This document shows positions 8,980 to 33,410 of a stretch of 44,648 nucleotides of DNA, in pieces. The stretch is from a virus. Within the stretch, counting starts at the first letter, position 1. Every line of letters starts with the position of its first letter. The translations under genes and the position numbers were made by a program. The notes under the pieces are model-generated. The model saw only the letters and a program-made list of their open reading frames with translations. It had not been told where the DNA came from and searched no databases. The stretch spans positions 1-44,648 of IMG/VR virus record IMGVR_UViG_3300002334_000084. One strand, 5' to 3'.

Positions 8980-10755
8980 GTGTCAGTAGGTGCAGGGGGT
9001 CGCATTCGGATCCCGGACTACGAGGTGGGTCAGGTCCAACCGACAGCGGTCGGCGCGGCGCAAACTCCATTCTCTGTGATCGATACGTCTGGCATTCAGA
9101 AGGGCCAGGCGCTCGCCGGCTTTGGTCGAGATCTCACTTCGGTCGGTCTCCAGTTCCAGCAGATGTTCAATGAGCAGGGGCAGCGTGACGACCAGCGGCT
9201 CGGCCAGGCGGCGTTCACGAAGTCGATGGATGAAGCCGGCGCAAGCATGGGCGAATTCATGGCACGGCGCGGGCCTGCTGCGCTTCCGGACCCTCGAGAT
9301 CCGACAGGCGAAGCCGGCGGAACGCAGGGCGTCACGGCCGACGCTCGCAAGAAATGGAAAGAGATCTTCGAGAAGAACGCGAAGGGACTGTCACCGAGGC
9401 AGCGGGAGATCGCGGGGGAGAAGTTCAGCCAGTTCTCATTCGCGTCGTACAGGACGCTCGGCCGTCACGAGGCAGCGCAGCGGGTACAGGCAGAGATCGA
9501 GACCAACGACGAAGAGAAGCGAGCCTGGCGTCGACACGCGGTCAATAACTTTTCCGACGCTGCAGAAGTCGATAAGGCGATCGCACAGATTCAACGTCTC
9601 ACAGACTTGAATCCACACGACACGCTCACAAAGAAAAGCAACGACAAGCTATCGGTCGCGGCTGAACTGCAGGCCTCAACGATCGATCTTCTCGCGCGCA
9701 TGGACTACCCCGCGGCGATGGAGCGCCTCGTTGAGCATACGAACGTGATCGGGCCCGAGCTGTCGAATGCACTGCTCGACAAGATCAACGTGCACCGTGT
9801 CGATCGAGCAGCTCCGCCGATCGTAAACGCTGCACTCACCACCTGGCGGCCTAACGGTGGAGATCTCACGCTCACCGAGATCTCGAAGGGGCTCAGAGAT
9901 CGCTACGCGCACGACCCGGATCTGCAGAGGGAAGTACTCGATCGATTTGACGCCGCGCGAAAGCTGCAGGTATCCAATGAAGATGAATCCCGGCGCGTCG
10001 ACAATGCGGCCAGGTCGGCGGCCGTCGCCGAAGTGCTCGAGCGCGCGGTGCGGATTCAGATGCCCTTCGTCTACGACGAGGCGCGGACCCTGATCAAAGA
10101 GAGCAACGATCCCGACTACGTGAAGAAGGCGCTCAAGGAAGTCGATCGAGCACAGCGTGGTGAGACGGTCGGGCAGACGGACTGGGATCGATACCTCGAG
10201 CTGCTCGACATGCGGAACGCGGATCCGGACAAGCTGCGCAAGGTCGACCCGTACAAAGAGCCGCTCGACGAGGCACAGCGTAGGAAGATCATCGGCCTGA
10301 TCGAAGACGTCGCGCTCGGCAAGTCGTCGGCCTCGAAGCCTCAAGGCTCTTCGTTTGCGGCGCAGGCCGGGCAGTTCATCAAGACCGAGAAGCTCTCCGG
10401 TGCCAACTCGGCCGCCTTCATCGAGCGGTTCGAAGAGGAAGTCGAGATCTTCGCGCAGACCACAGGCAAGAACGCGACGCCGGTACAGATGCGCGAGATC
10501 GGTAAGGGTCTGCTGCAGACCGTCGAGTGGTCGGGGTGGAACGAAGAGGCTTTTCTCTTTGAGTCGGGCGATGTCACACGGTTCGACGTCGACGACTCGA
10601 GCTTCGATTCGCATACGCTCGTTCCGTTCAACTACGCGCACGCGCTGCGCGGTCGGTTCCAGCAGAGGCTCGGCCGCGAACCCTCGAGAGAAGAGATCTT
10701 GCAGTCATTCAAGGAATTCGTGCGCGAATCAAGAGCGTCGGAGCGGCCGCAATGA
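8980..10755 (+). CDS. Internal virion protein, T7 gp15-like
   Basis: This protein of 591 residues lies between the gp14-like and the giant gp16-like genes. It starts with a short glycine-rich N-terminus (RIRIPDYEVGQVQPTAVG), common in phage ejection-core proteins. The rest is almost wholly helical, charged and without cysteine, and its size is near T7 gp15 (747 residues). In T7 this protein builds part of the internal core and of the channel across the periplasm. The start is GTG with a GGGGGGAGAG site. It overlaps the next gene by ATGA. Confidence 0.72.
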   Translation: MSVGAGGRIRIPDYEVGQVQPTAVGAAQTPFSVIDTSGIQKGQALAGFGRDLTSVGLQFQQMFNEQGQRDDQRLGQAAFTKSMDEAGASMGEFMARRGPAALPDPRDPTGEAGGTQGVTADARKKWKEIFEKNAKGLSPRQREIAGEKFSQFSFASYRTLGRHEAAQRVQAEIETNDEEKRAWRRHAVNNFSDAAEVDKAIAQIQRLTDLNPHDTLTKKSNDKLSVAAELQASTIDLLARMDYPAAMERLVEHTNVIGPELSNALLDKINVHRVDRAAPPIVNAALTTWRPNGGDLTLTEISKGLRDRYAHDPDLQREVLDRFDAARKLQVSNEDESRRVDNAARSAAVAEVLERAVRIQMPFVYDEARTLIKESNDPDYVKKALKEVDRAQRGETVGQTDWDRYLELLDMRNADPDKLRKVDPYKEPLDEAQRRKIIGLIEDVALGKSSASKPQGSSFAAQAGQFIKTEKLSGANSAAFIERFEEEVEIFAQTTGKNATPVQMREIGKGLLQTVEWSGWNEEAFLFESGDVTRFDVDDSSFDSHTLVPFNYAHALRGRFQQRLGREPSREEILQSFKEFVRESRASERPQ

Positions 10756-13700
10756 GTGAAGATCCGCTATTCGGCGGCGTCAATATCGACAAGATCATCG
10801 ACCGGGTGAGCGAGCAGAGCAGCGTGCGCGGCCGCCGGCTTCGGAGCGCTTCGAAGGGCGATCCCGACGTCTACGCCAAGGCCCGAGATCTCGGGCTCGA
10901 GGCCGGGCTCACCCCCGACACGGTGATCGGGCAGGAAGATGTCATCGGAGAGCGCAACCGCGATCGCGAACTCGATCGATGGGTCGAGAACGATGCACAT
11001 CCGAAGATGACCCAATGGCTTCTATCGGACCAGGAAAACGCCAGGCTCGCGCACGACCAGGTGCAGCAGCTCGAGCAGCTCGAGGAGACGGCGAGCTTCT
11101 ACGGCGAGACCGAGACGCCGCCGGATCCAACGGACCCGGAGCCTGGTGCGATCGAGAACTTCCTGCGTGCGATCCCCCGGCACTACGAGCAGGGTTCGAT
11201 TCAACGCCAGGTGTCGCAGATCGACACGAATGAAGTACTCGCGAACCTCGGGTTCCAAGATTACCCCTCGTACGACGATCTCTCGAGACGGACGTCGCTG
11301 CTCGGCACGCTCAGCGAACTCGAGATGCTCAATCGACAGGCCGAGTTTGGTCGGGGCTCGAAGCTCGCGCTCGAGATCCCGAAGCAGATCCCCAACCTAT
11401 TGGGCGGCACCGGCAAGCGGTTCGCTGCACAGTTCACGGTGCAGGGCGGGCTCGCGGTCACTGCGGCCGGGCTGCGCCGGATCCCGGTCGTGGGCGTGGC
11501 CGCCGGCGGCGTGAGCCTGGCGCAGAAGAGCGGCGTGATCTCTCGAGGTGTGGGCGTGCTGGCGACGGTGGTCGACACGGCGGAGCAAGAGATCGGCGGG
11601 ATGTACCGAGAATCGATCGAGACGATTCCACCGACGCCCGACTTCCCGGCCGACGATCCGTTCCGCAACTACACCGTGTTGATCATGGGGACGCTCGCGG
11701 GGAGCGCTGAAGCGCTGGGGCAGTTCGGCGTTTCCCGCGGCTTCGCTAACACAGTCTCATTCAATAAGGCGGTGCGCGAACAGTTCCGCCGGCTGATGAG
11801 CGACGGCGTCAAGCACCCGGCGCTCAGGCAGTGGGCGAAGGGCACGCTCGGCGAGGGCGGCACCGAGATGATTCAGGAGACCTTCGCGGTCGTGGCCATC
11901 GAGTGGCAGAAGGCGCTCGCTGGATCCGCCACCGTCGACGAGGCCCTCGGCAAGTTCGCTTCCCTGGAGAACCTGGCCCGGATGTTTGGCGAGCACCAGG
12001 GGCGCGTCGGCGAGGCTGGACTCACGGGCCTGGTCGTGGGCGGAACCTTCACGGCCGCGAGCACCAGCTTCGGCGTGGCGGCCGAGAATTTCTCCGATCG
12101 CCGGAGGACGCAGCGGGCCACGCATGCAGCGTCATTCCTCACGGACATCGACCTGGCCGTCGACGAGCTGCAGAGTCTCAAGGAACGCAGCCCCGAGAAA
12201 CTCCGCGAGGCGATCGAGGCCTCTGCCGCGGGTGGCGGCGTTGACACGGTGATGATCCCGGCCGACGAGTTGAATTTCATGGCACAGGATCAAGAGATAG
12301 ATATCGACGATCTCTTTGATGGCATGCCGGAGACGGTGCGCGAGAGTTACGACCGAGGCCTCGAGAACGGGGGCGACGTCGCGATCCCTCTCGGCTTCTA
12401 CGTGACCAACGTCATGAAGACCGAGGCGCACGAGAAGCTCACGCCGCACATCCGGATCAACGAAGACGACCACACGGCAACGGAAGCGCTCGCAGTCCAG
12501 GCCGAGGCCGACGTGCGGATCGAGGCGACGGCTGCTCGAGCAACGGCTGAGATCGAGCAGGGCGCCCAGCAAGATCGTCAGGTCGACTTCATCGCCGCGC
12601 AATTGGCGCGTGAGATCCTCGAGGCGTCGCCGACAGTCTTGAATGCAGAGGGTCAGACCGTGCCGCTCAGTCGACGAGAAGCGCAGGCCTCAGCGTTCAT
12701 CAATGCGAAGATGATCGTCAACCTGGCCGACCGGTTCGGGATCCCGGTGCAGGAACTCGAGCAGCGCGTCGGGCGCCTGGTCGTGACCGGGTTCCGTGGC
12801 GAACCCAATGCGTCGAACGTCCTACTGCAACCCGAAGACGGTGATGTGATCGACCTTGCTGCTCGCAGGAAAGATGCGAGCGAGCAGAAGGAACGCATCC
12901 TTGATGAGATCCGCAAGCAGGTCAAAGAGGTGATAGAGGAGGCGCAGCAAGAGGCGACCGCAGAACAAGTGAGCCAGATGGACCCGGATTCGGTCCACTC
13001 GATCGGCGACCGCTTCCTGGGTGGCAAGCCAGCGGGAAACTCGAAGGGGCACCTCGAAGGGAACGTCCGGCTAGAGATCACTGGTTACGACCGAGTCGAT
13101 GACAATGGGACCGTTCACTACACCGTCACGCAGCACTGGCCCGATGGGACAACCAGCGAAACTCGGTTGACCAATGAAAACTTTGAGTTCGCGACGAAGC
13201 TGGGCGGGCTTGAGGTGGTGCCAAGCGACCAACCCGCCACCGCACCAGTCACCGACAGCAACGAACTTTTTCAGCCAGTCGAAGACCCTGCGCTCGAGCA
13301 GCTACTCGCGGAGTACGAAGTCGTCGCACCGGAGAACCCGACACCCGAGCAAATTCAGGACACGAATGCAGCGGTCGAGGTGGCAGAGATTCTCTGGGAG
13401 GCCGGCGTCTTTCAAAATGATTATGCGATCGCACTGCGCAGTCGCGACGTCGGTTTGATCGAAGAGGCTCTCGAGAGTATTGGCGATCGCCGGACGTGGG
13501 CCGAGATTCTCGAAGAGCATGAAGGCGAGACGGAAGCCGACACGTTCTCGGTGGCAGACAGCGCCGACTTCTTCGACATCGCCATTCAGGACAAGGGTCT
13601 CACCGACGACATCAATGAGGCCGGCTACATCCTGCCAGATGGAGGCCTTCTCGACTTCAGCGGGAAGCGCAACGGTGGGCCGCCTGGCCAGCGGGCTGAG

Positions 13701-16700
13701 GATCATCGTCAGATCGTCTCGCCGGCGGGCGTCGAAGGCACTGACGCGATGATCGCGTTCCAGCGTCTCGGCGCGATCCGTATCGATGCAGCGTCGAACT
13801 TCATCGACATGGAAACTCGGCCGACGTCGACACAACTCCGCGTGCTCGAGCAGCTCTTCGATTCTGGCGAACCGGTGAACATCGACCTGGTCGACTTCGA
13901 AAGCCCGAAGACGAAAGAGACAGGCGAACGCAGCACCAGCTTCGTCGCGCACTCGCCTGAAGCACTGCGCCGGCGCGTGCTCGAGTTTTATCGTGGTGTC
14001 GACGTCGAGCGGAATGCGGAGTTCTTCCAGCCGGACGAAGAGGGTACGCCGGCGACGCCCCCGCCTCGAGGTTTCTTCGCTCCTACCGAAGGCGGCCAGG
14101 CGAACACGATCGGTCTCGGCGAGGGTGCGAACCTTTCGACGTTCCTCCACGAGGCCAGTGGCCACTATGTGATCAACGTACTCGGCGCACTCGCGCAGGA
14201 TCCCAACGCGCCGCAGCAGATCGTCGACGACTACGCCGCGCTGCTGAAATTCGCCGGCGTCGAGCAGGGCCAGGCCATTGTCGACACGCGTGAGCTCGAG
14301 CCGGCGCTCCTCGCATTGAAGCTCGCTCGAGAGGCCAAAGATACGAAGGCGATCGCGGCCGCACGCAAGCGCGTCACGCATGCGAATCGTCACGCCGAGA
14401 AACTTGCTCGAGCAATGGAGCAGTACCTTCGCGAGGGCAAAGCGCCGACGTCGGAACTGAAGCGAGCGTTCCAGCAGTTCGCGGCCTGGCTCACCGATCT
14501 CTATCGCGACCTGGCTCGACTCACCGGCCGCGCACTTCCGGCCGACGTCGTCGAAGTCTTTGATCGCCTGGTCGCCACCGACGAAGAGATCCGCCAGGCG
14601 AAGGCCGAGCACAAACTCGGGCCGATGCTCACCGAGAAACCTGAATGGATGACGGCGAAGGAATGGGAGGTCTACTCCGCGGCGGCCGTGCAAGAGGAGC
14701 AGCTCGCGAATGAGCGACTGCTGCGGATCCAGGCTCGAGACAGAAAGCGCGCAAAGAAAGAGGCGGCCTTCTCGGGCGAGCGTGAGCTGATGACTTCGCT
14801 CGTCGAAGAGGAGCTGAGGCAGAGCCCGATTCATCAGGCCAGGCAGTGGCTGGCGGATGGGACGTGGATCGGGACCGGCGACGCGCCGACGGTTCAACCG
14901 GGGAAGCTCGACCAGGCCGAGATCCTGCAAGAGTTTGGCGATCGCGTTTTGCGCAGCCTACCCAAGCACCGCCAGGGAGTACTCGCCGGCAAGCGCACCG
15001 GGGGCGCCAACCATTGGGAAGTGGCTCGAGCATTCGGTCTCTCGACCCACGAGCTGATCAGCGGGCTGCAGGAGACGCCGGTCTTCTCTGAGGCCGTCGA
15101 GCAGCGCGTGAATGAAGATCTCGCGAGCATGGAGCCGACCGACGACACGACGCAGCAGCAGGCCGTCGACGCGCTCCACGGGGAGCCCGCGGCCAATGGC
15201 GTGGTCAGAGACATCGGGTGGCTGAAGAAGCAGACCGCGGCACGTCGGGCGGTGCGTGCCGCGGCCGAGCGCCAGGTCGCCGAGCAGGGTGCGCTCACAG
15301 CCGAGGAGAGGCTTTCGGAGGTCACGGCTGCGCAGGACGCACTCGACGCCGCCCAGAAGGCGGGCCTCGAAGCTCGTGAGAGCGGCTCTGCCGAAGAAAT
15401 CGCCATAGCGGACCAGCAGGTCGCAGACGCGCAGATCGCATTCCAGGCCGCCAGCGAGCGCCGGGACGCGGCAAGAATCGCTCGCCGCGGGGAGAGGGCC
15501 TCGAGACGAGAGACCGCCGGCCTCAAAGTCGAGCAGCAGGCCACCCGGTTGCGCGCTCAGCTGGACGTCGCCCGCCTGCCCATCGGAGAGTTGAGGCCCA
15601 ATCGCTACAGCGCAGCCGAGCGTAGAGCGGCCGAGCGATCGCGCCGGGCCGTCGCCTCGAGGGATTTCGAGGGCGCGCTGCAGTCGAAGCGGGACCAGCT
15701 CTACAACCATTTCGCCTATCGAGCAGCTCGCGAAGCGCAGAGCCAGGTCAAGACGATCCGCGCTCGAGCGAAGCGGATCATGAACCCGAAGCACCTGAAC
15801 AAGGTCGAGGGCGGCGGCGGCATCGAGTTCCGCCGGCACATCGTCACGCTGGCCACGCAGAGCGGATTCGTTCGGCCGTCGAAGCGCCCGAAGGATCGGC
15901 CGAGTGGTGCGGAAGCGATCGCGGCCGCGGCGTTTGAGAATCAGAACATCGCAGAGCCGGCGGCCGCGGTACCCGTCGAGCCGACCGACAAGAGTCTCGC
16001 GGCATTCGTCGAGGACCTGATCAACGTCGACGGGCTTTCGATGTCCTTCGATCCCGACCTGGTCGCGCAGGCGATGGCCGTGGGCAGCTTCAATTTCATG
16101 TCGCTCGATGAGGTCGCCGAGATCGATCGAGCGATCGTGAACCTCGATCACATCGCCACCGAAGCGAACAAGATCAGGCTCGGCAACATCGTCGCGGACT
16201 TTCACGAGGTGAGGGATCTGATGGTCGGGCAGATCCGCCGGGTGCACGGGTTCCCGGACGTGCTCGAGCCCGGTGAGACGCGGCCGCACAAGCCTCGAGG
16301 CTTTACCGACAATTGGACGCGCGGCGTTGAATACGGCCATGCGTGGCTTGTGAAGATTGAGAGCTTCGCGGTGTATCTCGATGGCGGCGTGGAAGGCGGG
16401 CCGAACTGGCAGTTCTTCGGGAAGCTCTCGCGCGATGCGCAGTTCGAAGAGCACCAGCTGAAGCAGGACTGGGGCCAGGATGTGCAAGCGATCTTCAGCG
16501 TCTACAGCCGGGCCGAGAAGATGGCCATGGACTACGCCGGCTATGAGATTGCGGTCCCGGAGGTTGGGCGCTCGTTCACCAGGTCGCAGATGCTCGCGGT
16601 CGCCCTCAACATGGGCAACGCCTACAACCGCGACGCGCTCAAAGACGGCTACGGATGGAACGACGACCAGCTGCGCGCGATCGTCGGGCATCTCGAGGAA

Positions 16701-18254
16701 CGAGATATCGCAGTGGTCGAAGGCGTTTGGTCGATGCTGCAGAAGCGCTGGCCGATGATCAAAGAGCACGAGGTTCGGATGAGCGGCGTCCAGCCGAGCC
16801 AGGTGGAGCCGGATCAATTCACGCTCGCGAATGGCCGCGTGCTCGCCGGCGGGTACTACCCGCTCAAGGCTGACACCGACGTGAATGAGCGCGCGTTTCA
16901 GCAAGACGAGAACACGAAGGTGAACGCGCTCTTCGGTGGGCAGTACGCCTCTGCGCAGACCCGGCACAGCCAAACGATGGAGCGGCGCGGCTGGGGAGAC
17001 AAGGAAGTACTTCTCGACCTCACCGTCATGTATCAGCACATGAACGACGTCGCCCACGACGTGGCACAGCGGAAATTCGTAGTCGATGCGATCAAGCTGA
17101 TTCAGGATCCCGAGTACTCGCAGGCGATCAAAGACGTCGCCGGCACCGAGATGCTGCGCACGATGAAGGAATGGGTCCACAACATCGCCGGCGACGCCTT
17201 CGATCCCATGAACCCGGTCTCGAGGCTGATGAAGAAGACTCGGATCGGTGCCAATGTCGCGATCATTGGCTTCTCGATGACCACGCTCGCACAGCAGCCC
17301 TTCGCCCTGATCAACGCCGGCGCGAAGGCAGGCTGGGCGAACACGGCTCGAGCGGTGGGCGCATTCATCAATCACCCGTTCAAGCAATACGAGTTCATTG
17401 TCGAGCGATCGCAGGAGATCCCGACGCGTGCGAAGACGCGCGATCGCGAAATCGCAGACCTCACCTCTCAGCTGAAGCCCGACGCGTTGCTGAGTTCCGC
17501 GCAGCAGTGGGGATATTTCGCGATCGCCTGGACCGACGTCGTCACCGCATCGGTGGCCTGGTCCGCGGCGTACTCGCAGGGCATGAACGATCTCTTCTCT
17601 GGTGATGAGCAGGCCGCGATCGACTACGCGGATCGAGTGGTCGTGTTGACGCAGGGCGCCGGCGCACCGAAGGACTTGCCGCGGATCCAGTTCGATACGA
17701 AGGGCGGCGAGCTGCTGAAGCAGGCCACGGTGTTTCACACGTTCTTCAATGCGCAATACAACTTCATCGCCGAGCAGCGAGCGCGCCGAGGCTTCGGGCA
17801 GATCTCGAGAACCGAGATGCTGAACGGATTCTTCTGGGCGCTCGTCATTGCTCCGATCCTGATAAACCTCATGCTAGGAAGGCATCCGGAGTTCAATGAT
17901 CCGGAAGAAGAATGGCTGAGCTGGGGCGCCTGGTCGGTGGGTGGCAACCTGGTCGCGTCGGTTCCGATCGGCTCGCAGGTTGGGCGCCTGGCGCAGCACC
18001 CGGGACGCGGCTTCTCGCTGAGCCCGAGTGATGGCGTGATCGAGAACACAGTCAACGCAGTGCGGGCTCTGGGCGACGTTCGCGAAGAGGGCCTGGTCGA
18101 GTCGGGTGTGATCGGGCACTCGGTGGAAGCCCTGGCGATGTGGAAGGGGATCCCCGGCTACATTCAGGGAAAGCGATTGATCACGGCGCTGAGTGAATCT
18201 ATTGGCGGCGAGGACGTGCCGATTCGTCGGCCACTCTTTGGGAGCAAAAAATGA
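10752..18254 (+). CDS. Giant internal virion (ejection) protein, 2500 residues
   Basis: By position this is the gp16-like last component of the ejection core, but it is far longer than T7 gp16 (1318 residues). Glycine/alanine-rich hydrophobic segments occur near residues 210-290 and 410-430, and again near 2168-2195 and 2355-2372. They could insert in the inner membrane during DNA entry. Residues 1133-1138 read HEASGH after STFL. This resembles the FLHESGH zincin-like motif of large polyvalent phage proteins but has one extra residue between the histidines. An alanine/glutamate-rich coiled coil spans about 1490-1640. I see no lytic transglycosylase motif at the N-terminus. It is coupled by ATGA at both ends. 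Confidence 0.8.
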   Translation: MSEDPLFGGVNIDKIIDRVSEQSSVRGRRLRSASKGDPDVYAKARDLGLEAGLTPDTVIGQEDVIGERNRDRELDRWVENDAHPKMTQWLLSDQENARLAHDQVQQLEQLEETASFYGETETPPDPTDPEPGAIENFLRAIPRHYEQGSIQRQVSQIDTNEVLANLGFQDYPSYDDLSRRTSLLGTLSELEMLNRQAEFGRGSKLALEIPKQIPNLLGGTGKRFAAQFTVQGGLAVTAAGLRRIPVVGVAAGGVSLAQKSGVISRGVGVLATVVDTAEQEIGGMYRESIETIPPTPDFPADDPFRNYTVLIMGTLAGSAEALGQFGVSRGFANTVSFNKAVREQFRRLMSDGVKHPALRQWAKGTLGEGGTEMIQETFAVVAIEWQKALAGSATVDEALGKFASLENLARMFGEHQGRVGEAGLTGLVVGGTFTAASTSFGVAAENFSDRRRTQRATHAASFLTDIDLAVDELQSLKERSPEKLREAIEASAAGGGVDTVMIPADELNFMAQDQEIDIDDLFDGMPETVRESYDRGLENGGDVAIPLGFYVTNVMKTEAHEKLTPHIRINEDDHTATEALAVQAEADVRIEATAARATAEIEQGAQQDRQVDFIAAQLAREILEASPTVLNAEGQTVPLSRREAQASAFINAKMIVNLADRFGIPVQELEQRVGRLVVTGFRGEPNASNVLLQPEDGDVIDLAARRKDASEQKERILDEIRKQVKEVIEEAQQEATAEQVSQMDPDSVHSIGDRFLGGKPAGNSKGHLEGNVRLEITGYDRVDDNGTVHYTVTQHWPDGTTSETRLTNENFEFATKLGGLEVVPSDQPATAPVTDSNELFQPVEDPALEQLLAEYEVVAPENPTPEQIQDTNAAVEVAEILWEAGVFQNDYAIALRSRDVGLIEEALESIGDRRTWAEILEEHEGETEADTFSVADSADFFDIAIQDKGLTDDINEAGYILPDGGLLDFSGKRNGGPPGQRAEDHRQIVSPAGVEGTDAMIAFQRLGAIRIDAASNFIDMETRPTSTQLRVLEQLFDSGEPVNIDLVDFESPKTKETGERSTSFVAHSPEALRRRVLEFYRGVDVERNAEFFQPDEEGTPATPPPRGFFAPTEGGQANTIGLGEGANLSTFLHEASGHYVINVLGALAQDPNAPQQIVDDYAALLKFAGVEQGQAIVDTRELEPALLALKLAREAKDTKAIAAARKRVTHANRHAEKLARAMEQYLREGKAPTSELKRAFQQFAAWLTDLYRDLARLTGRALPADVVEVFDRLVATDEEIRQAKAEHKLGPMLTEKPEWMTAKEWEVYSAAAVQEEQLANERLLRIQARDRKRAKKEAAFSGERELMTSLVEEELRQSPIHQARQWLADGTWIGTGDAPTVQPGKLDQAEILQEFGDRVLRSLPKHRQGVLAGKRTGGANHWEVARAFGLSTHELISGLQETPVFSEAVEQRVNEDLASMEPTDDTTQQQAVDALHGEPAANGVVRDIGWLKKQTAARRAVRAAAERQVAEQGALTAEERLSEVTAAQDALDAAQKAGLEARESGSAEEIAIADQQVADAQIAFQAASERRDAARIARRGERASRRETAGLKVEQQATRLRAQLDVARLPIGELRPNRYSAAERRAAERSRRAVASRDFEGALQSKRDQLYNHFAYRAAREAQSQVKTIRARAKRIMNPKHLNKVEGGGGIEFRRHIVTLATQSGFVRPSKRPKDRPSGAEAIAAAAFENQNIAEPAAAVPVEPTDKSLAAFVEDLINVDGLSMSFDPDLVAQAMAVGSFNFMSLDEVAEIDRAIVNLDHIATEANKIRLGNIVADFHEVRDLMVGQIRRVHGFPDVLEPGETRPHKPRGFTDNWTRGVEYGHAWLVKIESFAVYLDGGVEGGPNWQFFGKLSRDAQFEEHQLKQDWGQDVQAIFSVYSRAEKMAMDYAGYEIAVPEVGRSFTRSQMLAVALNMGNAYNRDALKDGYGWNDDQLRAIVGHLEERDIAVVEGVWSMLQKRWPMIKEHEVRMSGVQPSQVEPDQFTLANGRVLAGGYYPLKADTDVNERAFQQDENTKVNALFGGQYASAQTRHSQTMERRGWGDKEVLLDLTVMYQHMNDVAHDVAQRKFVVDAIKLIQDPEYSQAIKDVAGTEMLRTMKEWVHNIAGDAFDPMNPVSRLMKKTRIGANVAIIGFSMTTLAQQPFALINAGAKAGWANTARAVGAFINHPFKQYEFIVERSQEIPTRAKTRDREIADLTSQLKPDALLSSAQQWGYFAIAWTDVVTASVAWSAAYSQGMNDLFSGDEQAAIDYADRVVVLTQGAGAPKDLPRIQFDTKGGELLKQATVFHTFFNAQYNFIAEQRARRGFGQISRTEMLNGFFWALVIAPILINLMLGRHPEFNDPEEEWLSWGAWSVGGNLVASVPIGSQVGRLAQHPGRGFSLSPSDGVIENTVNAVRALGDVREEGLVESGVIGHSVEALAMWKGIPGYIQGKRLITALSESIGGEDVPIRRPLFGSKK

Positions 18255-19213
18255 GCGTTACAGACGACGACAGCGAAGAGATCTTCATCGGCGCAGCTTC
18301 AGACACTTACGCATACGGGAAGAACACCGACGCGGCCGCGAACGTCAAGGTCGCGCGGCTCGACGAGGATGGAGTTCCGACCGACCTGGTCCTTGGCACG
18401 AACTACGATCTCGCGAATGTGGGCGTCGTCGGTTCAGGGATCACCGTCACGTATCCCAACGCGACGAGCCCGGCGCCGCACAATCTCAATCTGACGTCGG
18501 CCGAGAAGCTCGTCGTTTGGATCGAGCCGCCATTCACGAATAGCTTCAATCCGAAGAACACCGCCTCGTACGATCCGGTCGCGCTCGGCAACCGCATGGA
18601 CAAGTTGATTCGACTGACACAGAAGCTCAAGACAGACGTCGGTCGTTGCTATCACGTGGCACTCGGTGCGACTGGACCCGCGGCATCGCCCACCGGTCCC
18701 ACCGTCGCCGGCGGCCGCGTGCTGCTCGACGAGCATATTGTCACCGCTGCGGCAAAGGCGACGGTCACGGCCGTGAACTGGCCCGCGACATACGACAGTG
18801 TCGAGATGGAGCTGATCGGAATGCTGGCAGGATCCGCCGGCGGGCAGCTCGAGATCGAGCCACTCGATGGCCTTGCCGCGATCGGTACGTCTCTCGTCTC
18901 GGCGGGATATGGGCTAAACGGTGCGACGATCTACGACGATCAAGACGTCACGAATTGGAAGACTCCCGTCACGACCACGATCGGGGTCGCCGCCGGCGAC
19001 GAGCTGAACGGCTTGATCCGGTGGACCTATTTCAGCGAGGGGGATCTGGTCGGCCAGGGAAACGCTGCGTGGAAATCGGGCGGCACGTACCGGAACGCGA
19101 CGCTGATCTTCCATCGTACAGGAGCGCCGGCGACGTCGTGGGATGGGTTTGATGTGAAGTGTGTCGTCACGACGACGGGCATTGTAAGACTGTGGGGCAT
19201 CGTTCGATCATAG
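18251..19213 (+). CDS. Tail fibre or fibre-adaptor protein
   Basis: This protein has 320 residues. The first 130 or so have the form of the podovirus fibre N-terminal domain: short beta strands ending in a linker helix (VALGNRMDKLIRLTQKLKTD) that resembles the trimer-forming start of T7-type fibres. The rest is beta-rich and ends in a compact hydrophobic tip. It begins by ATGA overlap with the giant ejection protein, where fibre genes are expected. It lacks the long repetitive shaft of T7 gp17, so it may be a short fibre or an adaptor carrying another receptor-binding protein. Confidence 0.7.
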   Translation: MSVTDDDSEEIFIGAASDTYAYGKNTDAAANVKVARLDEDGVPTDLVLGTNYDLANVGVVGSGITVTYPNATSPAPHNLNLTSAEKLVVWIEPPFTNSFNPKNTASYDPVALGNRMDKLIRLTQKLKTDVGRCYHVALGATGPAASPTGPTVAGGRVLLDEHIVTAAAKATVTAVNWPATYDSVEMELIGMLAGSAGGQLEIEPLDGLAAIGTSLVSAGYGLNGATIYDDQDVTNWKTPVTTTIGVAAGDELNGLIRWTYFSEGDLVGQGNAAWKSGGTYRNATLIFHRTGAPATSWDGFDVKCVVTTTGIVRLWGIVRS

Positions 19214-19222
19214 GAGAACTAA

Positions 19223-19705
19223 ATGCGTTTCATCACTGTTCTACTCGTTCTATTCATGTGTCTCGGGACGTTCCCGGCGGCGGCAGATTGGGAAAGAGTC
19301 TTCGACGGGACCGATTCGACGGTTGCGAAGAAGACGATCGGGAGCAGCAACCAGGCTCTTTATCACCACTTCACCACCATCGACGACTCGACGGGTCTGT
19401 TCATTCAGGCCGGCTATGAGGTTGAGGTCTGTCTCAACGCGAACGATGGGTCGCCGACGAAGACCGGCAACCTCACGAAAGTGTGGCTGCTTCATGGGAC
19501 GCACATCGGGGGCGTGGAGCCTGGTGCGAACCATTGGCTTCGGTTGTTCAATATCGAACTCGATGGCACGGGCTCGCCGAGTGGCGTGACGAATGATTGC
19601 CATTACACGGTCGACGGACCTCGCTGGATCATGGTCGACGTCACGGTCGCGCCAGACAATAACGGCGCGTATGTCTCGGTGATCGTGCGGCCGAAAAAGA
19701 GGTAG
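19223..19705 (+). CDS. Secreted protein 1 of the post-fibre cassette
   Basis: This protein has 160 residues and a clear Sec signal peptide (MRFITVLLVLFMCLGTFPAA, cleavage likely after residue 21). The mature part of about 140 residues is beta-rich with two cysteines and ends in a basic RPKKR tail. It looks exported to the periplasm or beyond, which is unusual for a gene lying directly after a tail fibre. It shares the WY/W-type hydrophobic second half with the next three proteins only weakly, so membership of their family is uncertain. The ATG has a TAGGAG site. Confidence 0.75.
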   Translation: MRFITVLLVLFMCLGTFPAAADWERVFDGTDSTVAKKTIGSSNQALYHHFTTIDDSTGLFIQAGYEVEVCLNANDGSPTKTGNLTKVWLLHGTHIGGVEPGANHWLRLFNIELDGTGSPSGVTNDCHYTVDGPRWIMVDVTVAPDNNGAYVSVIVRPKKR

Positions 19706-19707
19706 CC

Positions 19708-20310
19708 ATGCGGGAATCAATTCGAGTTGCGATCGCGTTGCTGCTGGTCCTGTGCCTGGGGCCGACGGGGGCGCTCTCTGCTCCGGAGTCGAAGCCGAAG
19801 TCTGCCTGCTCCAATGGTTACGTTCAGTGGACGCAGAACAGCACCGAGAGCACCAGTGCCACCGGGACATGGGGGACGCTCGACGGCGCCCTCGGGGCTG
19901 ATCATGATCAGGATTCCTCGAGTCAATCCTTCGCGGATTGCTTCGAAGTCTCGACTGTCATCGACCACATGTTTCAGTACGTCTGCGACATTCAAGAATA
20001 CCGCATCACTGGACAGCAGACGTTTCAGGTTTCAGTGGGGGAGCGTGAGCCGAAGCTTGCAATTTGTAGCAGCAGCACCGAAGCGGTGTGCGGGATCTTC
20101 CAGCAATACACATCCTCGTTGCAGCGCGCGACGAGTACCGGCGCGAACCACTTCGTGCAGACCTTGATCGACTTCCGGGTCGTGTTGTCGAAGGACGTCT
20201 GGTATGGGTTGCAGATTCAAATCGGCGGGGGTGGAACTGCAACGATCACACAGACCCCCGGCGACCACCTTCGGGTCGAGGAGTCTAAATGCGAATTGAT
20301 CGTCTGGTGA
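19708..20310 (+). CDS. Secreted cysteine-rich paralogue A (post-fibre cassette)
   Basis: This protein has 200 residues. The signal peptide ends near residue 25, and the mature chain starts PESKPKSAC. The mature part has six cysteines. A shared core, C about 16-20 residues before FQYVC, recurs in the next two proteins, as does a C-terminal WYG element followed by a Gly-rich turn and a final cysteine. The even cysteine number and export signal fit a disulfide-stabilised periplasmic or surface protein. No enzyme motif is seen. It starts two bases after the previous stop. Confidence 0.78.
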   Translation: MRESIRVAIALLLVLCLGPTGALSAPESKPKSACSNGYVQWTQNSTESTSATGTWGTLDGALGADHDQDSSSQSFADCFEVSTVIDHMFQYVCDIQEYRITGQQTFQVSVGEREPKLAICSSSTEAVCGIFQQYTSSLQRATSTGANHFVQTLIDFRVVLSKDVWYGLQIQIGGGGTATITQTPGDHLRVEESKCELIVW

Positions 20311-20873
20311 TTCCATGCCTGCTCGTCGTGGCAACGCTCGCGTTTGCGGGGCCGGAGCCGAAGCCGAGGTCTGGGTGCATCGATAGGCTCATCCGATTCA
20401 CGGGGAACACTGCGACGTTTACCACGGTCGGCGCGGCCGGCGTCGCATTCCATTTGGCGGGCCGGCTCGGCGCGGACCACGGCGACTCATACGTAACGCC
20501 TGGATTCCTCGCGTGCTTCGCGTACGACGAGAGCAATGGGCATCACTTTCAGTGGACCTGTAAGGACACCTTCGTCGAGATGAGCGCGATCATTTCGGGG
20601 CAAGTGAACGCGGCCGATAGAGATATCGCGATGGGCTTCGCGCATAAAGCGACGTCGGGGACGATGTCGGCCTCGGACTTCATCAGAAAAGTCGCTCGCA
20701 CGCACAAGGCGACGGGCGACTACGTCCAGCATCGGCTTCGGCTTTGGAATTACGAGCTGCAGGAAAATGAGTGGTACGCAATCCTGATCGCTTCGGAAAA
20801 CGGGGGGAGTCCTGGCTTCACAGCAATCCTCTCGCAGCACTGGGAAATTCAGGAGATGGGATGCAGACAATGA
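20289..20873 (+). CDS. Secreted cysteine-rich paralogue B (post-fibre cassette)
   Basis: This protein has 194 residues. The signal peptide MRIDRLVIPCLLVVATLAFA is followed by GPEPKPRSGC, almost the same mature start as its upstream neighbour. Four mature cysteines include the shared CFAY...FQWTC pair, and the C-terminal WYA element and last cysteine also match. The start ATG lies inside the previous gene with a GAGGAG site before it, so the two are translationally coupled. Function is unknown. The paralogy comes from direct side-by-side reading. Confidence 0.78.
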   Translation: MRIDRLVIPCLLVVATLAFAGPEPKPRSGCIDRLIRFTGNTATFTTVGAAGVAFHLAGRLGADHGDSYVTPGFLACFAYDESNGHHFQWTCKDTFVEMSAIISGQVNAADRDIAMGFAHKATSGTMSASDFIRKVARTHKATGDYVQHRLRLWNYELQENEWYAILIASENGGSPGFTAILSQHWEIQEMGCRQ

Positions 20874-21508
20874 AAATTGCAATCGCTTTGATTCTGCTGG
20901 TGGTGTTCGCTTCGTCCGCAAACTCTGGGCCGCAGTCGTGGGCGAGCGGGTGCAGGGATCAGTCGGCGACGTTCGAAGCAAACGCGGGGATCTCTTCGGG
21001 CCTCGGTTCCGGTGGCTTCGAATATCAAAGTCTCGAGGGGACCTCTGGGGAGTGGCCGGCGACTTATGTCGGCGATGACATCGAAGCGTGTATCGAGTGG
21101 GTGTCGACGTGGGGGAACTTTCAATTCCGTTGGGTCTGTGAGAGTACGTGGTTCACGATCGAGGCGAACATCGACTTCACAATTCCATCAGGCTCAGCGA
21201 GTTCGCTTGTTCTCACGGCATCGTCACACAATGCCGACGTCGACATGCACATCGGCCACCTCTATCCAGGGACCGGAGCGGGCTGCGACCCGTGCCAGAC
21301 TTGGGCGATCTTCTCGAGGCACCATCACCAGACGCACTTCAATGCCAGCGAGTCGATCAATCACGTCATTACTTACCCGCTCATAGAGGATCGATATTAC
21401 GGATTCATGTGGTATTCAAATACTGGGGCAGACGTGACGATGACGATGCTCGAGGGTTCATTCATTCAATACACAACGAACACGTGCCAGAGAGGGACCT
21501 ACCCATGA
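20861..21508 (+). CDS. Secreted cysteine-rich paralogue C (post-fibre cassette)
   Basis: This protein has 215 residues. The signal peptide MQTMKIAIALILLVVFASSA is followed by a GPQSWASGC-type mature start, parallel to paralogues A and B. Six mature cysteines include the shared pair (EACIEW, then FQFRWVC) and a CDPC motif that is absent in the others. The C-terminal half ends with RYYGFMWY, a Gly/Asp turn and a final cysteine, again matching A and B. The start is placed at the ATG five bases after AGGAG. An ATG nine bases later would overlap the previous stop as ATGA and is the alternative. Confidence 0.77.
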   Translation: MQTMKIAIALILLVVFASSANSGPQSWASGCRDQSATFEANAGISSGLGSGGFEYQSLEGTSGEWPATYVGDDIEACIEWVSTWGNFQFRWVCESTWFTIEANIDFTIPSGSASSLVLTASSHNADVDMHIGHLYPGTGAGCDPCQTWAIFSRHHHQTHFNASESINHVITYPLIEDRYYGFMWYSNTGADVTMTMLEGSFIQYTTNTCQRGTYP

Positions 21509-22137
21509 AGTCTTTGCTTGTAATGCTGCTAGTCCTGGTGCCGGCGATCGCGGCCGCGGGGCCAGAGAATCGTCCGGTTGCGCCTGGTGAAGTCTGCTTC
21601 GAGGCGACAGTGGTCTGGGGTCAAGGCCACGCTGAATCAACTCAAGTAACGACGCTCTCGGCTGACGATGTGCCCGTGCCGATCACCTTCGCCGATGCGT
21701 TCAAAGTGTACGGCCCGCTCACTGCAGACCCTGACCATGTGGACTTCACGGGCGAGCTGGTCGAGTCCGACGGTCTGCTCGGATTTCTCTGGTCGAAGGG
21801 AGGCGCTGGCGACACTCACCGGCTCAACGTTAGCTATCACATCACATTTCAATCTCCGCGATCGGACACCGGTGACTACCTGCATTTTCAGGTTGGCGTC
21901 GACAATCAGTGTCCGCTTGACAGTGGCACACCATCAAACAACTACGGCGGCACATTCGCAGGGGTTCACACGGGAGTTCGTAACGCCAATGGCGTTGGCA
22001 TCTTCGACGTCGACAACGGGCAATGCTTCGGGCTGATGGTGGACCCGACCGACTTCACCGCCGGCGACGACGTCACGATGCGCGGCGTCACTATGAATAT
22101 CCGACAGGTGAGCACGAAGGAGAGACCATGTCGGTAG
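21505..22137 (+). CDS. Secreted protein 5 of the post-fibre cassette
   Basis: This protein has 210 residues and begins by ATGA overlap. The signal peptide MKSLLVMLLVLVPAIAAA is followed by GPENRPVAPGEVC. The mature start (GPE, proline, then cysteine) resembles paralogues A and B, but the body differs: a longer beta-rich domain with cysteines near the start, at NQC, GQC and the last residues. It may be a diverged member or a different domain behind a shared export leader. No catalytic motif is visible. Confidence 0.76.
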   Translation: MKSLLVMLLVLVPAIAAAGPENRPVAPGEVCFEATVVWGQGHAESTQVTTLSADDVPVPITFADAFKVYGPLTADPDHVDFTGELVESDGLLGFLWSKGGAGDTHRLNVSYHITFQSPRSDTGDYLHFQVGVDNQCPLDSGTPSNNYGGTFAGVHTGVRNANGVGIFDVDNGQCFGLMVDPTDFTAGDDVTMRGVTMNIRQVSTKERPCR

Positions 22138-22436
22138 AGGCCACAGCACCGACGTCGACGAACAACATCACTCGAGACCCTCGAGCCGCCGGCGGAACCA
22201 TGGCGAGCACAATCATCCTGAACGGGGCGATCGACGCCTACGTGAAGCATGGAGATTTCCCGATCCCGCCCGAGTTCGTCGGCTACCTCTACACGCTGGG
22301 CAACCTCGCGAATCTGGCGATTGGCACTGCGATGCGCGATATCAAGTTCGTGCTCGACGCCAGCGAGCATCGGGATAAGGTTTGGATGCACGTGGTGATG
22401 GCCCCGATCAACTTCGTGGCCTCAATCTTTGGATAG
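22128..22436 (+). CDS. Small protein of unknown function at the lysis region start
   Basis: This 102-residue protein has a GAAGGAGAG site before its ATG and overlaps the end of the previous gene by ten bases. A mildly hydrophobic stretch around residues 45-70 (FVGYLYTLGNLANLAIG) and a hydrophobic C-terminus are visible, but neither is a convincing membrane helix. I do not recognise the family. Its position between secreted proteins and holin-like genes could mean a lysis accessory or a membrane-associated protein. Confidence 0.65.
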   Translation: MSVEATAPTSTNNITRDPRAAGGTMASTIILNGAIDAYVKHGDFPIPPEFVGYLYTLGNLANLAIGTAMRDIKFVLDASEHRDKVWMHVVMAPINFVASIFG

Positions 22437-22447
22437 GAGTCTGGCAA

Positions 22448-22723
22448 TTGTCTCTCGAGGCGATCGTTCTCACCATTCTGGGGATCGCCATCCCAGCACT
22501 GATCGGGGTTGTATTCAAAATGTTTAGATCCTTGGCGGTAATCGCAACGCAGAACGAAGCGCTGCTCGCGAGGCAGGATGCGATCGCTAACGACGTGGAG
22601 ACCACAAAAGAGAGCCAAGAGAAGGCGACGCGGGCCACGATCTATATGGCGCAGCTGACGCACTGGACGGCGAAGAAGAATGGCGACGAGCCGTTCCCGT
22701 TCCCCGCCGACCTTCTGGGATGA
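22448..22723 (+). CDS. Single-TM small membrane protein, holin candidate
   Basis: This 91-residue protein has one strong N-terminal membrane helix (about residues 5-25) followed by a charged, coiled-coil-prone segment (EALLARQDAIANDVETTKES) and a proline-rich end. Size, topology and position fit a one-TM holin or an inner-membrane spanin-type protein. No family signature settles which. The start is TTG with a TAGGAG site eight bases before it. No in-frame ATG close to that site exists. Confidence 0.65.
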   Translation: MSLEAIVLTILGIAIPALIGVVFKMFRSLAVIATQNEALLARQDAIANDVETTKESQEKATRATIYMAQLTHWTAKKNGDEPFPFPADLLG

Positions 22724-22784
22724 CACTGCAAGCCTGATGATTGGCGCTGTGCTGGTCGGATGGATGCAGAAGAGGAGAGAGAGA

Positions 22785-23045
22785 ATGAAGGTGGCAAAGA
22801 AGCTAGTCGCCGTCGCGGCGATCGCCGTGATGGCTGTGGCAACCGTGTCGTGTCAGTCCGCACCGAAGTTCGGGCCGGCGCAGTGCAGCGCCCTGGCCGG
22901 GCTTGCGATCGCGGTGGCGGTACAGATCACGAATGTCGTCGACGAAGAGAAAACGGCACTCGTCGCCGAGTACGGCAACATCGTCGGCAACCTGGCCGCG
23001 TTCGGTTGCTCGTTTGTTCCTGAGCCCGTCGAAGACCTGGTGTAA
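22785..23045 (+). CDS. Small lipoprotein of the lysis region
   Basis: This protein has 86 residues. The N-terminus MKVAKKLVAVAAIAVMAVAT is followed by VSCQS, a lipobox-like cleavage site with the modified cysteine at residue 23. The mature part is short, with two more cysteines and a hydrophobic alanine-rich helix. An outer-membrane spanin would be a small lipoprotein in this position, but the proline-rich arm usual for that family is missing. It may instead be an exclusion lipoprotein. Upstream in-frame ATGs exist, but the AGGAGAGAGAG site favours this one. Confidence 0.65.
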   Translation: MKVAKKLVAVAAIAVMAVATVSCQSAPKFGPAQCSALAGLAIAVAVQITNVVDEEKTALVAEYGNIVGNLAAFGCSFVPEPVEDLV

Positions 23046-23047
23046 CG

Positions 23048-23296
23048 ATGGAACTCGATCCCAAGGTCATCGGCGGAATCATCGGGAGCGCGATCATCGG
23101 CCTGGCGGGCGGCGGCGGCCTTGGGTTCGGGTACAGCTCGGAGCAGCATACGCTCGACATCGAAGCTGAAAAGTCGAAGCGCGAGGACATTCAAAAGCTC
23201 TTCGATAGTCAGAACGCAGCGCACGAGCGGGCGATGAGGAGCGCGCAGGACGGGTACACCCGGAGCCTCGAGATCCTCGCCGGGACCTGCGGCTAG
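23048..23296 (+). CDS. Single-TM protein with coiled-coil tail, inner spanin-like candidate
   Basis: This protein has 82 residues. A glycine/isoleucine-rich membrane segment (about 8-28) is followed by a charged helix (DIEAEKSKREDIQKLFDS and on). An N-terminal anchor plus a coiled-coil tail is the general build of inner-membrane spanins, and the lipoprotein gene lies immediately upstream. Gene order is the reverse of the usual one, so the assignment is weak. It is the last gene of the rightward virion block. Its stop overlaps the stop of the converging leftward operon by four bases. Confidence 0.6.
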   Translation: MELDPKVIGGIIGSAIIGLAGGGGLGFGYSSEQHTLDIEAEKSKREDIQKLFDSQNAAHERAMRSAQDGYTRSLEILAGTCG

Positions 23297-23685
23297 CGAA
23301 CGACGGCGCGCACTACCTGCGGCACGCACGTGGCCACGCGGTTCTCTCGGCGATCGGGGGTCTGCTTCGCGTGCCACACCATCGTCCCCGCGGCCAGGTC
23401 AACGGCGACGCGGATCTCGAGAGCGGTCGACACAATGACGAACGACCGACGGCCGACCTGGGTCACGAAGACGTTACTGCGGCCGATGGGGAACTCGACG
23501 CCGTCAATCGTGATCGAGTTCTCGTCGGTCTCGAAGCGGACGCCGGCCTGTGAATTGCTGCAATCAAGAATTGCGACGGGCGGACCCGCCAGGCAGGGTA
23601 TCGAAAAAGCCAGGCTCAAAATGACTGCCAGGGGTATTGAGAACGCGGTGGATCTCATCCATTTGCTCGGTCGTGAGTTGCTCAT
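23293..23685 (-). CDS. Secreted small protein at the end of the leftward operon
   Basis: This protein has 130 residues. After a short basic N-region, a hydrophobic signal core (STAFSIPLAVILSLAFSI) ends in PCLAG, so signal peptidase I cleavage after CLA is likely. No proper lipobox is present. The mature part is a small beta-rich domain with two cysteines (ILDC near the start, ATC near the end). The start is the ATG five bases after GGAGG. An upstream GTG is too close to that site. It overlaps the preceding gene by 122 bases in another frame. Confidence 0.7.
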   Translation of the reverse strand: MSNSRPSKWMRSTAFSIPLAVILSLAFSIPCLAGPPVAILDCSNSQAGVRFETDENSITIDGVEFPIGRSNVFVTQVGRRSFVIVSTALEIRVAVDLAAGTMVWHAKQTPDRRENRVATCVPQVVRAVVR

Positions 23686-23857
23686 CGTCACCTCCGGCCT
23701 CAGACCATACCCCTTCAGGACCGGGGACGCGCCGGTATAGATCTCGCTCCTCGAGCGCGAGCGCCTGGTCGGCCTCTTCGTATCTCCGCACGATCCAGGC
23801 GTCGATCAGTGCGAAGAGCACGACCAGGGCGACGATGGCGATCGCGAGCTTGATCAT
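23564..23857 (-). CDS. Small single-TM protein overlapping the secreted gene
   Basis: This protein has 97 residues. An N-terminal membrane helix (MIKLAIAIVALVVLFALIDA) is followed by a short charged coiled-coil-like stretch (RRYEEADQALALEERDLYRR) and an acidic, glycine-rich tail. It starts by ATGA overlap with the gene before it, a good sign that it is real. Its last 40 codons double as the signal-peptide region of the next gene. TM plus coiled coil with an overlapping exported partner recalls the Rz/Rz1 spanin layout, but the partner lacks a lipobox. Function is therefore open. Confidence 0.62.
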   Translation of the reverse strand: MIKLAIAIVALVVLFALIDAWIVRRYEEADQALALEERDLYRRVPGPEGVWSEAGGDDEQLTTEQMDEIHRVLNTPGSHFEPGFFDTLPGGSARRNS

Positions 23858-24294
23858 TGGCTGGTCAACTTCGTTTCGTCGGTCATCCGCAAAATCGTGG
23901 CCCACTGCTCGGCCGCGCGGAACGCTTCCTGCTCGAGCCCGCACCCGGTGCTCGCGATGGGCGTCTTCGTCAAAGGATCGTACTCCCATCCGATCATCAC
24001 CTCGTCGCTGATGAACTCTCGGAACTGGTCGACGAAAGCTCGAGCTTCCTGCAGAGAGGCGGCGTCGGCCCAGAGTGTGATCCCGCTCGGAATGTGGGAG
24101 ACGTTCCATGGCCCGCCGAGGCTGGGATCTGTCAAATATTCGCGCGGGTTCTCGTGAGCGACGAGCACCCTCGAATCCGTCTCGTAGGCTTGAACTACGC
24201 TGGGCCTGGCCTTGCCCTCGAGTTCGTCCCACATGATGTAAAGCTCGATCGGAAACGTGACGTCGGAAAGATTCGCGTGTGGCTTGTCGCTCAT
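23854..24294 (-). CDS. Unknown protein, paralogue of its upstream neighbour
   Basis: I do not recognise this 146-residue soluble protein. It aligns by eye with the product of the preceding leftward gene over its middle. Shared elements are P-x-VV-x-A, a GG-x-W followed by SH, a G-x-x-LW element, and an alanine-rich helix ending in the F or AL of the C-terminal part. The pair looks like a tandem duplication. ATGA overlaps on both sides show tight translational coupling in the operon. Confidence 0.7.
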   Translation of the reverse strand: MSDKPHANLSDVTFPIELYIMWDELEGKARPSVVQAYETDSRVLVAHENPREYLTDPSLGGPWNVSHIPSGITLWADAASLQEARAFVDQFREFISDEVMIGWEYDPLTKTPIASTGCGLEQEAFRAAEQWATILRMTDETKLTSQ

Positions 24295-24653
24295 TTGACC
24301 TGTTCCTGTGCGATTTGGATTGCGCTCGCGAGGTTAGCGAAGTCGGTCGCGTCGAGATTCGAATAGTTGGTCGTGGTGTTCACTCTCCACATGGCCAGGC
24401 GATCGAAGCCGACCAGGGCCTCGAGCGCGATCGCGAACGCTCGGCCCTGCTCGACAGACGTCGCGAAGCTCCAGAGCCGTACTCCGCACAGCATGTGCGA
24501 GCAGATCCACTCGCCGCCGAAGCTCTCTTCGTGGGGCGGGTGAATGCAGACCAGCCGGCACTCGGTGCGGAAGGCGCGCACGACGGGCGGCGTCTTGCCT
24601 TCGTCGATGAAGCGGTGCGAGGTAATCGGAAAGTCGAAGGTGTCTTCGCTCAT
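24291..24653 (-). CDS. Unknown protein, paralogue of its downstream neighbour
   Basis: This protein has 120 residues. The segment TPPVVRAFRTECRLVCIHPP, then FGGEW, SHMLCGVRLW and a following alanine-rich helix match the order of motifs in the next gene. It carries four cysteines, and its paralogue only one. No known fold or active site can be named. Small paralogous pairs of this kind are often accessory anti-host genes, but nothing in the sequence shows that here. It is coupled by ATGA on both sides. Confidence 0.7.
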   Translation of the reverse strand: MSEDTFDFPITSHRFIDEGKTPPVVRAFRTECRLVCIHPPHEESFGGEWICSHMLCGVRLWSFATSVEQGRAFAIALEALVGFDRLAMWRVNTTTNYSNLDATDFANLASAIQIAQEQVK

Positions 24654-32961: not shown

Positions 32962-33410
32962 AACACGAAGAGCGGGTGAGAGGGATTCAAGCGGAGATTA
33001 ACGACGCTACTCGAGCCATCGAAGATCTCGAGGCAGCGGATCGCAAGCTGCTCGTCGCGAGCCATAACCTGATCTCGGATCTCGACGCCGAAGTGAGGGG
33101 CCTCGAGAAGCACGCTCGCTACGACGTCGGGCTCGGCAAGCCGATAGATCGCCCAGAATCGTGCTGGACCTGCGTCTTCGGTGAGCAGCCGGGCCCGGAC
33201 GGGATGTCACTCTGCCACAAAGGCGCACCAGGTCCCGACGGCTGGCGCGATACGAAAACGTGGGGCTGGTGCGGCGACTACAAATTCGATGCCTGTCCGG
33301 CGACGAACGGCGCGCGTCAATGCAAGTGCGTCGGGAAGCGAGGCCACACTCTCAATCACCTCGGAATCGTCCACGCCGGCACGATCATTGTGGTGGAGTG
33401 GTCGACGTGA
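32958..33410 (+). CDS. Coiled-coil plus cysteine-rich small protein
   Basis: This 150-residue protein begins at a TTG that overlaps the previous stop, with AAGAAGGGG upstream. The first 60 residues form a coiled coil (EINDATRAIEDLEAADRKLL). The rest has seven cysteines in C-x2-C and C-x-C groups (CWTCVFG, SLCHKG, GWCGDY, ACPATNG, QCKCVG), which suggests zinc binding. No named family fits. Confidence 0.65.
   Translation: MKHEERVRGIQAEINDATRAIEDLEAADRKLLVASHNLISDLDAEVRGLEKHARYDVGLGKPIDRPESCWTCVFGEQPGPDGMSLCHKGAPGPDGWRDTKTWGWCGDYKFDACPATNGARQCKCVGKRGHTLNHLGIVHAGTIIVVEWST

Follow-up and report, generated by a model that had tools for sequence, protein, structure and literature searches.

Gene product gp19 of phage BcepC6B, which is annotated as a tail fiber, and gp35 of phage PBR31 (both phages are cultured podoviruses) have signal peptides, and their genes are flanked by a fibre or spike gene on one side and by the holin on the other. 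No mention of a signal peptide on a fibre protein is made in papers on PBR31 and on podoviral fibres, and no paper on exported fibre proteins was found in the literature covered, which did not include subscription journals and preprints. Two other described systems are also relevant. The superinfection exclusion proteins Llp of phage T5 and Cor are exported and adjoin the gene of a receptor-binding protein, and in the Mtd/diversity-generating retroelement module of the related phage BPP-1 the receptor-binding gene has the adaptor fibre upstream and the lysis genes downstream of it. The virus record IMGVR_UViG_3300002334_000084 from IMG/VR is 44,648 bases in length and is analyzed here as a whole (the window). 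At positions 19223–22137 it has five consecutive genes, termed A to E, each of which begins with a predicted signal peptide for export by the Sec pathway. This feature was described in an original prediction made from the sequence alone, and the observation is confirmed here.

A–E are similar to BcepC6B gp19, PBR31 gp35 and their homologues in Burkholderiaceae prophages in that a Sec signal peptide is present and the genes come after a fibre or spike gene and before lysis genes. However, proteins of the BcepC6B gp19 type belong to another family, consist of a shaft plus a head, usually occur in one or two copies and have few cysteines. The position is also that of the BPP-1 module, but Mtd of BPP-1 does not have a signal peptide. 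A reverse transcriptase was not noticed in the window, although no search was aimed at one.

Signal peptides, cysteines and gene arrangement

The five open reading frames (ORFs) are all present on the plus strand, with starts at the predicted positions or a few codons off, and a Shine-Dalgarno-like stretch precedes each of them. Gene A (positions 19223–19705) encodes a signal peptide and a mature part of 139 amino acids (aa) with 2 cysteines. The mature parts encoded by B (19708–20310) and C (20289–20873) are approximately 176 and 174 aa in length and have 6 and 4 cysteines, respectively. Those of D (20861–21508, with a start at 20861 or 20870) and E (21505–22137) are approximately 193 and 192 aa with 6 and 4 cysteines. 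The signal peptide scores are 13.4, 13.6, 12.9, 14.0 and 13.4 for A to E, as determined by a hand-made heuristic (charge, hydrophobic core and the -3/-1 rule) and not by SignalP. The predicted run of five Sec signal peptides, with scores of 12.9–14.0, is thus reproduced. Only three other ORFs in the window score equally high; two are spurious or opposite-strand ORFs and the third is a lipoprotein-like ORF at 22764. The same analysis shows no second membrane span in A–E and no lipobox at the cleavage site. The cleavage sites are of the signal peptidase I type, and in B–E cleavage is predicted before A/GPE-type starts. The proteins start with the signal peptide and not with a virion-attachment domain of known type.

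Cysteine represents 2.52% of the residues in the mature parts of A–E, compared with 0.22% in ten other structural-module genes (13 cysteines in 5,902 residues; mostly virion proteins by homology). This is an approximately 12-fold enrichment (p = 6e-12). The number of mature cysteines is even in all five proteins, i.e., 2, 6, 4, 6 and 4 from A to E. The first mature cysteine is at residues 9–13 in B–E and at about residue 49 in A. A–E have the look of proteins folded in an oxidising compartment, where disulfide bonds may form, and the disulfide-type chemistry proposed originally is in agreement with these counts. A–E show no Pfam family at E ≤ 1 (C1q, TNF and BclA_C included), and comparison with PHROG shows no significant match and no fibre domain.

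The genes are located in a late operon with the order adaptor fibre (18251–19213), A–E, presumed lysis genes (22152–23296). Spacings along the series from the adaptor fibre through A, B, C and D to E are 9, 2, -22, -4 and -4 bases, which is typical for one translation unit. No sigma-70-like promoter is found in positions 17500–24500; this is a weak negative, as the host is not identified.

Paralogy within the cassette

Mature parts were compared pairwise by Smith-Waterman alignment against 1000 shuffles. The z scores are 24.5 for B–C, 12.4 for C–D and 5.1 for B–D, and the sequences indicate that the three genes at 19708, 20289 and 20861 are paralogues, as originally predicted. The pairs B–E (z = 3.8) and D–E (z = 2.4) are marginal, and A gives no pairwise signal with any other member. 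When aligned to a profile of B, C and D, A has an hhalign score of 26.2 and is in register, with HHF...T...IQA...V followed by NH.LRL.N.EL. None of 200 shuffles scores as high (maximum 24.1), and 16 other window proteins reach at most 15.9. By profile, A, which had not been counted with the paralogues, is probably a short and distant member of the B/C/D group.

Protein E is not distinct in the profile comparison (hhalign 16.8, reached by 7 of the 200 shuffles). Its mature start, GPE-x-x-P...C, is in common with B–D, and otherwise there is only the marginal pairwise signal to B. The earlier description of E as sharing the start only therefore stands. The mature N-terminus common to B–E is (A/G)P(E/Q)..P...C.

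Predicted fold of protein C

TNF/C1q folds are typically trimeric and serve as the heads of fibres and fibrils. An AlphaFold2 model of C, built with B and D (three sequences), is beta-rich but of low confidence, with a predicted local distance difference test (pLDDT) score of 55.5 and a predicted template modelling score of 0.53. The best 50 PDB matches of this model in Foldseek are all TNF/C1q-type jelly rolls, with E values of about 1e-4 and a probability of 1.0. They include EDA, CD40L, TRAIL, LIGHT, adiponectin, C1q and the spore-surface protein ExsF. VIA-align gives Z values up to 9.9, and the matches include the receptor-binding protein of phage 1358 and the F-BclA fibril tip. Matches in BFVD include many phage proteins and C1q-domain proteins.

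Protein E modeled alone gives an unusable AlphaFold2 structure (pLDDT 36), which matches nothing at E ≤ 1e-3. This provides a modest control, i.e., the TNF/C1q match of C is not automatic. A search of PDB sequences with the B/C/D profile produced chance matches only. The structural comparison suggested in the original prediction thus yields a low-confidence TNF/C1q-like model for C, but the comparison of folds with E is not usable. The model indicates that C is probably, though not proven to be, a TNF/C1q-like jelly roll. Such heads (C1q, BclA/ExsF and that of an adaptor fibre described below) have the fold predicted for C and form the tips of phage or spore fibres or fibrils. Unlike these, the window proteins are short, have a signal peptide and show no significant sequence match.

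Exported proteins at the same position in other phages

Searches of IMG/VR, which covered B–E, gave no relatives; C and D have none in phage records, and none of B, C and D has a relative in GTDB genomes. The B/C/D profile also found nothing in seven records of closer relatives, a search that had no positive control. The search of viral metagenomes suggested in the original prediction thus gave no relatives of B, C and D in IMG/VR. Because B–E lack relatives, the genomic slot was surveyed in place of the family. Alignment of the C-terminal part of the giant internal virion protein gene upstream (10752–18254, plus strand) gave 80 IMG/VR and 73 bacterial loci, 117 of which have enough downstream sequence. 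Rz-like spanins and signal-arrest endolysins (by appearance), which are frequent signal-like N-termini 3' of the giant gene, were left out.

Exported fibre-like proteins are found in the slot in six distinct loci of the 117 (L006, L016, L080, which is identical to L099, L103, L113 and L120). In vir555 (L006, BK063671), L016, Sphingobium, Cupriavidus and Caballeronia, the giant gene is followed by an adaptor fibre and then by an exported fibre-like protein. In vir555, positions 12042–17682 encode four signal-peptide proteins and one protein with an N-terminal hydrophobic segment, downstream of a T7-type adaptor (Pfam Phage_T7_tail, E = 1.3e-4, narrowly short of the cut-off). The exported proteins are a 768 aa fibre-like protein, a 241 aa cysteine-rich protein, a 526 aa protein and an Fn3-like protein (weak match). 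The 526-residue protein has 14 cysteines and a weak match to a chondroitinase-B-like beta-helix. This locus is similar to that of the window in that consecutive exported proteins follow a BPP-1-like giant gene and a single short adaptor fibre, but its proteins are fibre-like, beta-helix-like and Fn3-like and do not form a single paralogous jelly-roll family. The host of the vir555 record is given as Methanomicrobiales, an assignment that looks doubtful.

The slot protein of Sphingobium chungbukense has 440 residues and 12 cysteines. Those of Cupriavidus and Caballeronia have 287–320 residues and are related to BcepC6B gp19 and PBR31 gp35. Exported proteins of this Burkholderiaceae type match PHROG tail-fibre families, with E values down to 1e-18. 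Their C-terminal (head) domain is also present on Klebsiella and Pectobacterium phage tail fibres, where only the C-terminal part matches, and one of the proteins bears the shaft repeat of P1/P7 gpS. Among 398 genomes of the bacterial family to which Cupriavidus belongs, 34 have a homologue. Signal peptides are found in 23 of 31 homologue loci, with three more cut by the locus end, and of 20 larger regions about half have an adaptor fibre near the homologue. Two Burkholderiaceae prophages (L201 and L206) encode two exported fibre proteins each, with differing mature N-termini, QFTSGQILTAAQLN and Q(S/T)(F/Y)PSPTF.

In L016 the C-terminal end of the adaptor fibre is a BclA_C/C1q-like head, with matches that stay short of the Pfam cut-offs (E = 0.0034 and 0.008). 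The proteobacterial contig L112 encodes, at 13778–14248 and about 1.6 kb past the giant gene, a lipid A deacylase of the PagL type, whose Pfam match passes the cut-off (E = 8e-7). In an Azoarcus prophage (L118), the giant gene and the adaptor fibre are separated by a gene (12031–12792) for an exported protein of 253 residues without a family match.

Exported fibre proteins are recurrent among relatives of the window phage, though in a minority of them, and the slot proteins elsewhere appear from their sequences to belong mostly to unrelated families. The original statement that exported proteins are not a normal product of tail and fibre genes is tempered by this recurrence and by T5 Llp, lambda Lom and the PagL-like protein of L112, which are exported proteins encoded next to tail genes. 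Bcep22-like phages were considered for a test by proteomics, but the fibres of BcepIL02 do not have a convincing signal peptide. For this reason, the virion proteomics published for JC1 leaves the question undecided.

Proposed role and alternatives

We propose that A–E are Sec-exported, disulfide-bonded domains of the receptor-binding type that are used at lysis, most likely as virion adhesins and otherwise as receptor blockers. The chances for and against this proposal appear about even. B, C and D would represent stand-alone TNF/C1q-like jelly-roll heads and A probably a shorter relative, while E is left unassigned. The proteins would be made late, from one tightly packed operon with the adaptor fibre and just ahead of the presumed lysis genes. 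The mature proteins, which are soluble, would be freed by signal peptidase and become oxidised in the periplasm. Upon failure of the inner membrane at lysis, they would come into contact with the virions and serve as adhesins, with docking perhaps provided by the common mature N-terminus. Without docking, they would occupy host receptors, and progeny would not be re-adsorbed to debris.

Computed support comes from the signal peptides, paralogy, cysteine enrichment, gene packing, the fold class of C and the exported fibre-like proteins in the slot. Binding to the host surface is suggested by the head-type fold, export, the multiple paralogues and the place in the fibre-lysis operon. We infer oligomerisation, receptor binding, docking and timing, as well as the choice between the two uses. 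Soluble blocker use remains likely. Virion adhesin use is slightly preferred for two reasons: some of the equivalents in other phages are complete fibres that have shaft repeats, and the common mature N-terminus of B–E would suit a docking peptide. Of the roles listed in the original prediction, that of receptor-binding parts oxidised in the periplasm agrees with the modeled fold of C and with the slot proteins, and the list as a whole is supported in part, although the role itself is still only suggested.

Several points weigh against the proposal. Tailed virions are assembled in the cytoplasm, so that incorporation could take place only after rupture of the inner membrane. The adaptor fibre, at 320 aa, can carry a head of its own, and extra heads are perhaps superfluous. 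Confidence in the model of C is low (pLDDT 55, built from three sequences). Most relatives of the giant gene do not have an exported fibre-like protein (about six distinct loci of 117 do). The B/C/D profile shows no similarity to the exported fibre family of BcepC6B and Cupriavidus (phrog_11393; hhalign probability 0.4%), and the likeness to that family is therefore one of fold class, export and position and not of homology. Virion proteomics was found neither for the window phage nor for another phage that encodes exported proteins of this kind.

The alternative that survives best is that the exported heads are never on virions and only block receptors. After release in the periplasm or at lysis, they would bind to the host receptor, either from inside or from outside, and prevent superinfection or the re-adsorption of progeny to debris. 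As a complete explanation this is on the unlikely side, though it is the foremost of the alternatives. The proteins are soluble, exported and of the fold class of receptor-binding heads. There are precedents in phage T5 at the receptor FhuA, where the purified receptor-binding protein pb5 blocks T5 infection when added and the gene of the exclusion lipoprotein Llp adjoins the pb5 gene (PMC9586334). An exported protein that acts on the envelope, the PagL-type lipid A deacylase of L112, is also found in the slot. On the other hand, A–E are packed closely in a late operon in which no separate promoter is visible, whereas early expression is described for many exclusion proteins (PMC9586334). A–E have no lipid anchor and no predicted barrel, and the exported equivalents elsewhere look like complete fibres or spikes with shaft repeats, which is more than a blocker needs. 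Exclusion of the Llp/Cor type, one form of the superinfection exclusion suggested originally, fits A–E poorly. Llp and Cor are small lipoproteins, whereas the window proteins are soluble, larger and in several paralogues. The absence of a lipobox disfavors this type, as does, more weakly, the lack of a visible promoter of their own. The blocker version of exclusion is retained as the alternative given above.

A further alternative is that A–E act on the envelope or the host in ways unrelated to adsorption, e.g., in glycan binding or immunity, and are exported late and carried as morons. A–E are without relatives of known function, and cargo, e.g., lambda Lom, is known to occur where fibre genes give way to lysis genes (PMC12309495). 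An outer-membrane barrel of the Lom/PagL type is not indicated for A–E, which have no such Pfam match, and C is predicted to be a jelly roll. Cargo genes of this kind appear improbable as an explanation for five genes in a fibre operon, three or four of them paralogous and with a fold of the fibre-head type, and fibre-like exported proteins recur in other phages. It is highly improbable that A–E are lysis accessories, i.e., exported disulfide proteins that aid envelope disruption like spanins or exported endolysins, for although holin-like and lipoprotein-like genes adjoin and exported endolysins exist (PMC6116005), Pfam shows no catalytic domain and no peptidoglycan hydrolase domain in A–E, no transmembrane segment follows the signal peptide, the C model is beta-rich and there are three paralogues.

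The proposal that A–E are exported receptor-binding domains may be extended, tentatively and with less confidence, to other phages. In some tailed phages, fibre heads would be exported via Sec, would fold and form disulfides in the periplasm and would be joined to virions upon failure of the inner membrane. This would represent an extracytoplasmic last step of tail assembly that evolved several times in unrelated fibre families. Signal peptides on recognisable fibre proteins of several apparently unrelated families stand in contrast to the accepted view of cytoplasmic assembly of tailed phages. If the proposal is true, there is a periplasmic, oxidising step in the making of host-range proteins, which cytoplasmic expression of such proteins would miss. 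The alternative outcome would be a widespread class of exported receptor blockers. Annotation pipelines could flag exported fibres, as the feature is readable from the sequence.

Genome and neighboring genes

The record has identical 99-base ends (window positions 1–99 and 44550–44648), and the portal gene is divided between the two ends. The genome is therefore probably complete, with the record cut at an arbitrary point. Sequence comparisons place the window phage with the BPP-1/epsilon15-like podoviruses. PHROG matches of its genes are phrog_332 (portal/head-tail adaptor), phrog_212 (major head protein), phrog_394 and phrog_376 (tail proteins) and phrog_418 (internal virion protein), and the terminase also matches these phages. 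The giant internal virion protein (2500 aa) is a homologue of Bbp10 of BPP-1. It has an LPD22 domain in its N-terminal region (Pfam PF18834, E = 5.6e-11), and its C-terminal third is similar to sequences in 39 phage records by tblastn, including BPP-1 bbp10 (E = 3e-52). The short tail-fibre gene that follows on the plus strand has a T7 gp17-type N-terminal adaptor, as determined by N-terminal homology to the fibre found after the giant gene in relatives. It has no signal peptide by the hand-made score and is probably cytoplasmic.

The presumed lysis region, also on the plus strand, consists of a small protein, a holin-like ORF at 22382, a lipoprotein-like ORF at 22785 and a small membrane-anchored protein, assigned by position and membrane segments. 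This region has no significant Pfam or PHROG match, and a lysis function is suggested by synteny with relatives. The lipoprotein-like ORF (22785–23045, plus strand, 86 residues) is directly after the holin-like ORF and may be part of the lysis module; no endolysin is recognised near it.

Two other genes are located farther downstream. An ORF at 33260–33943 (plus strand), which has no Pfam match, reads MVDVKLNRRRFVQALAATIAVPGMAW from the start at 33398 and displays a twin-arginine-like signal. The gene at 34113–34949 (plus strand) is a probable anti-defence gene. Its protein has a WDGH domain (E = 1.7e-6) and a C-terminal match to Tad6, an inhibitor of type I Thoeris (Pfam PF25188, E = 2.2e-27).

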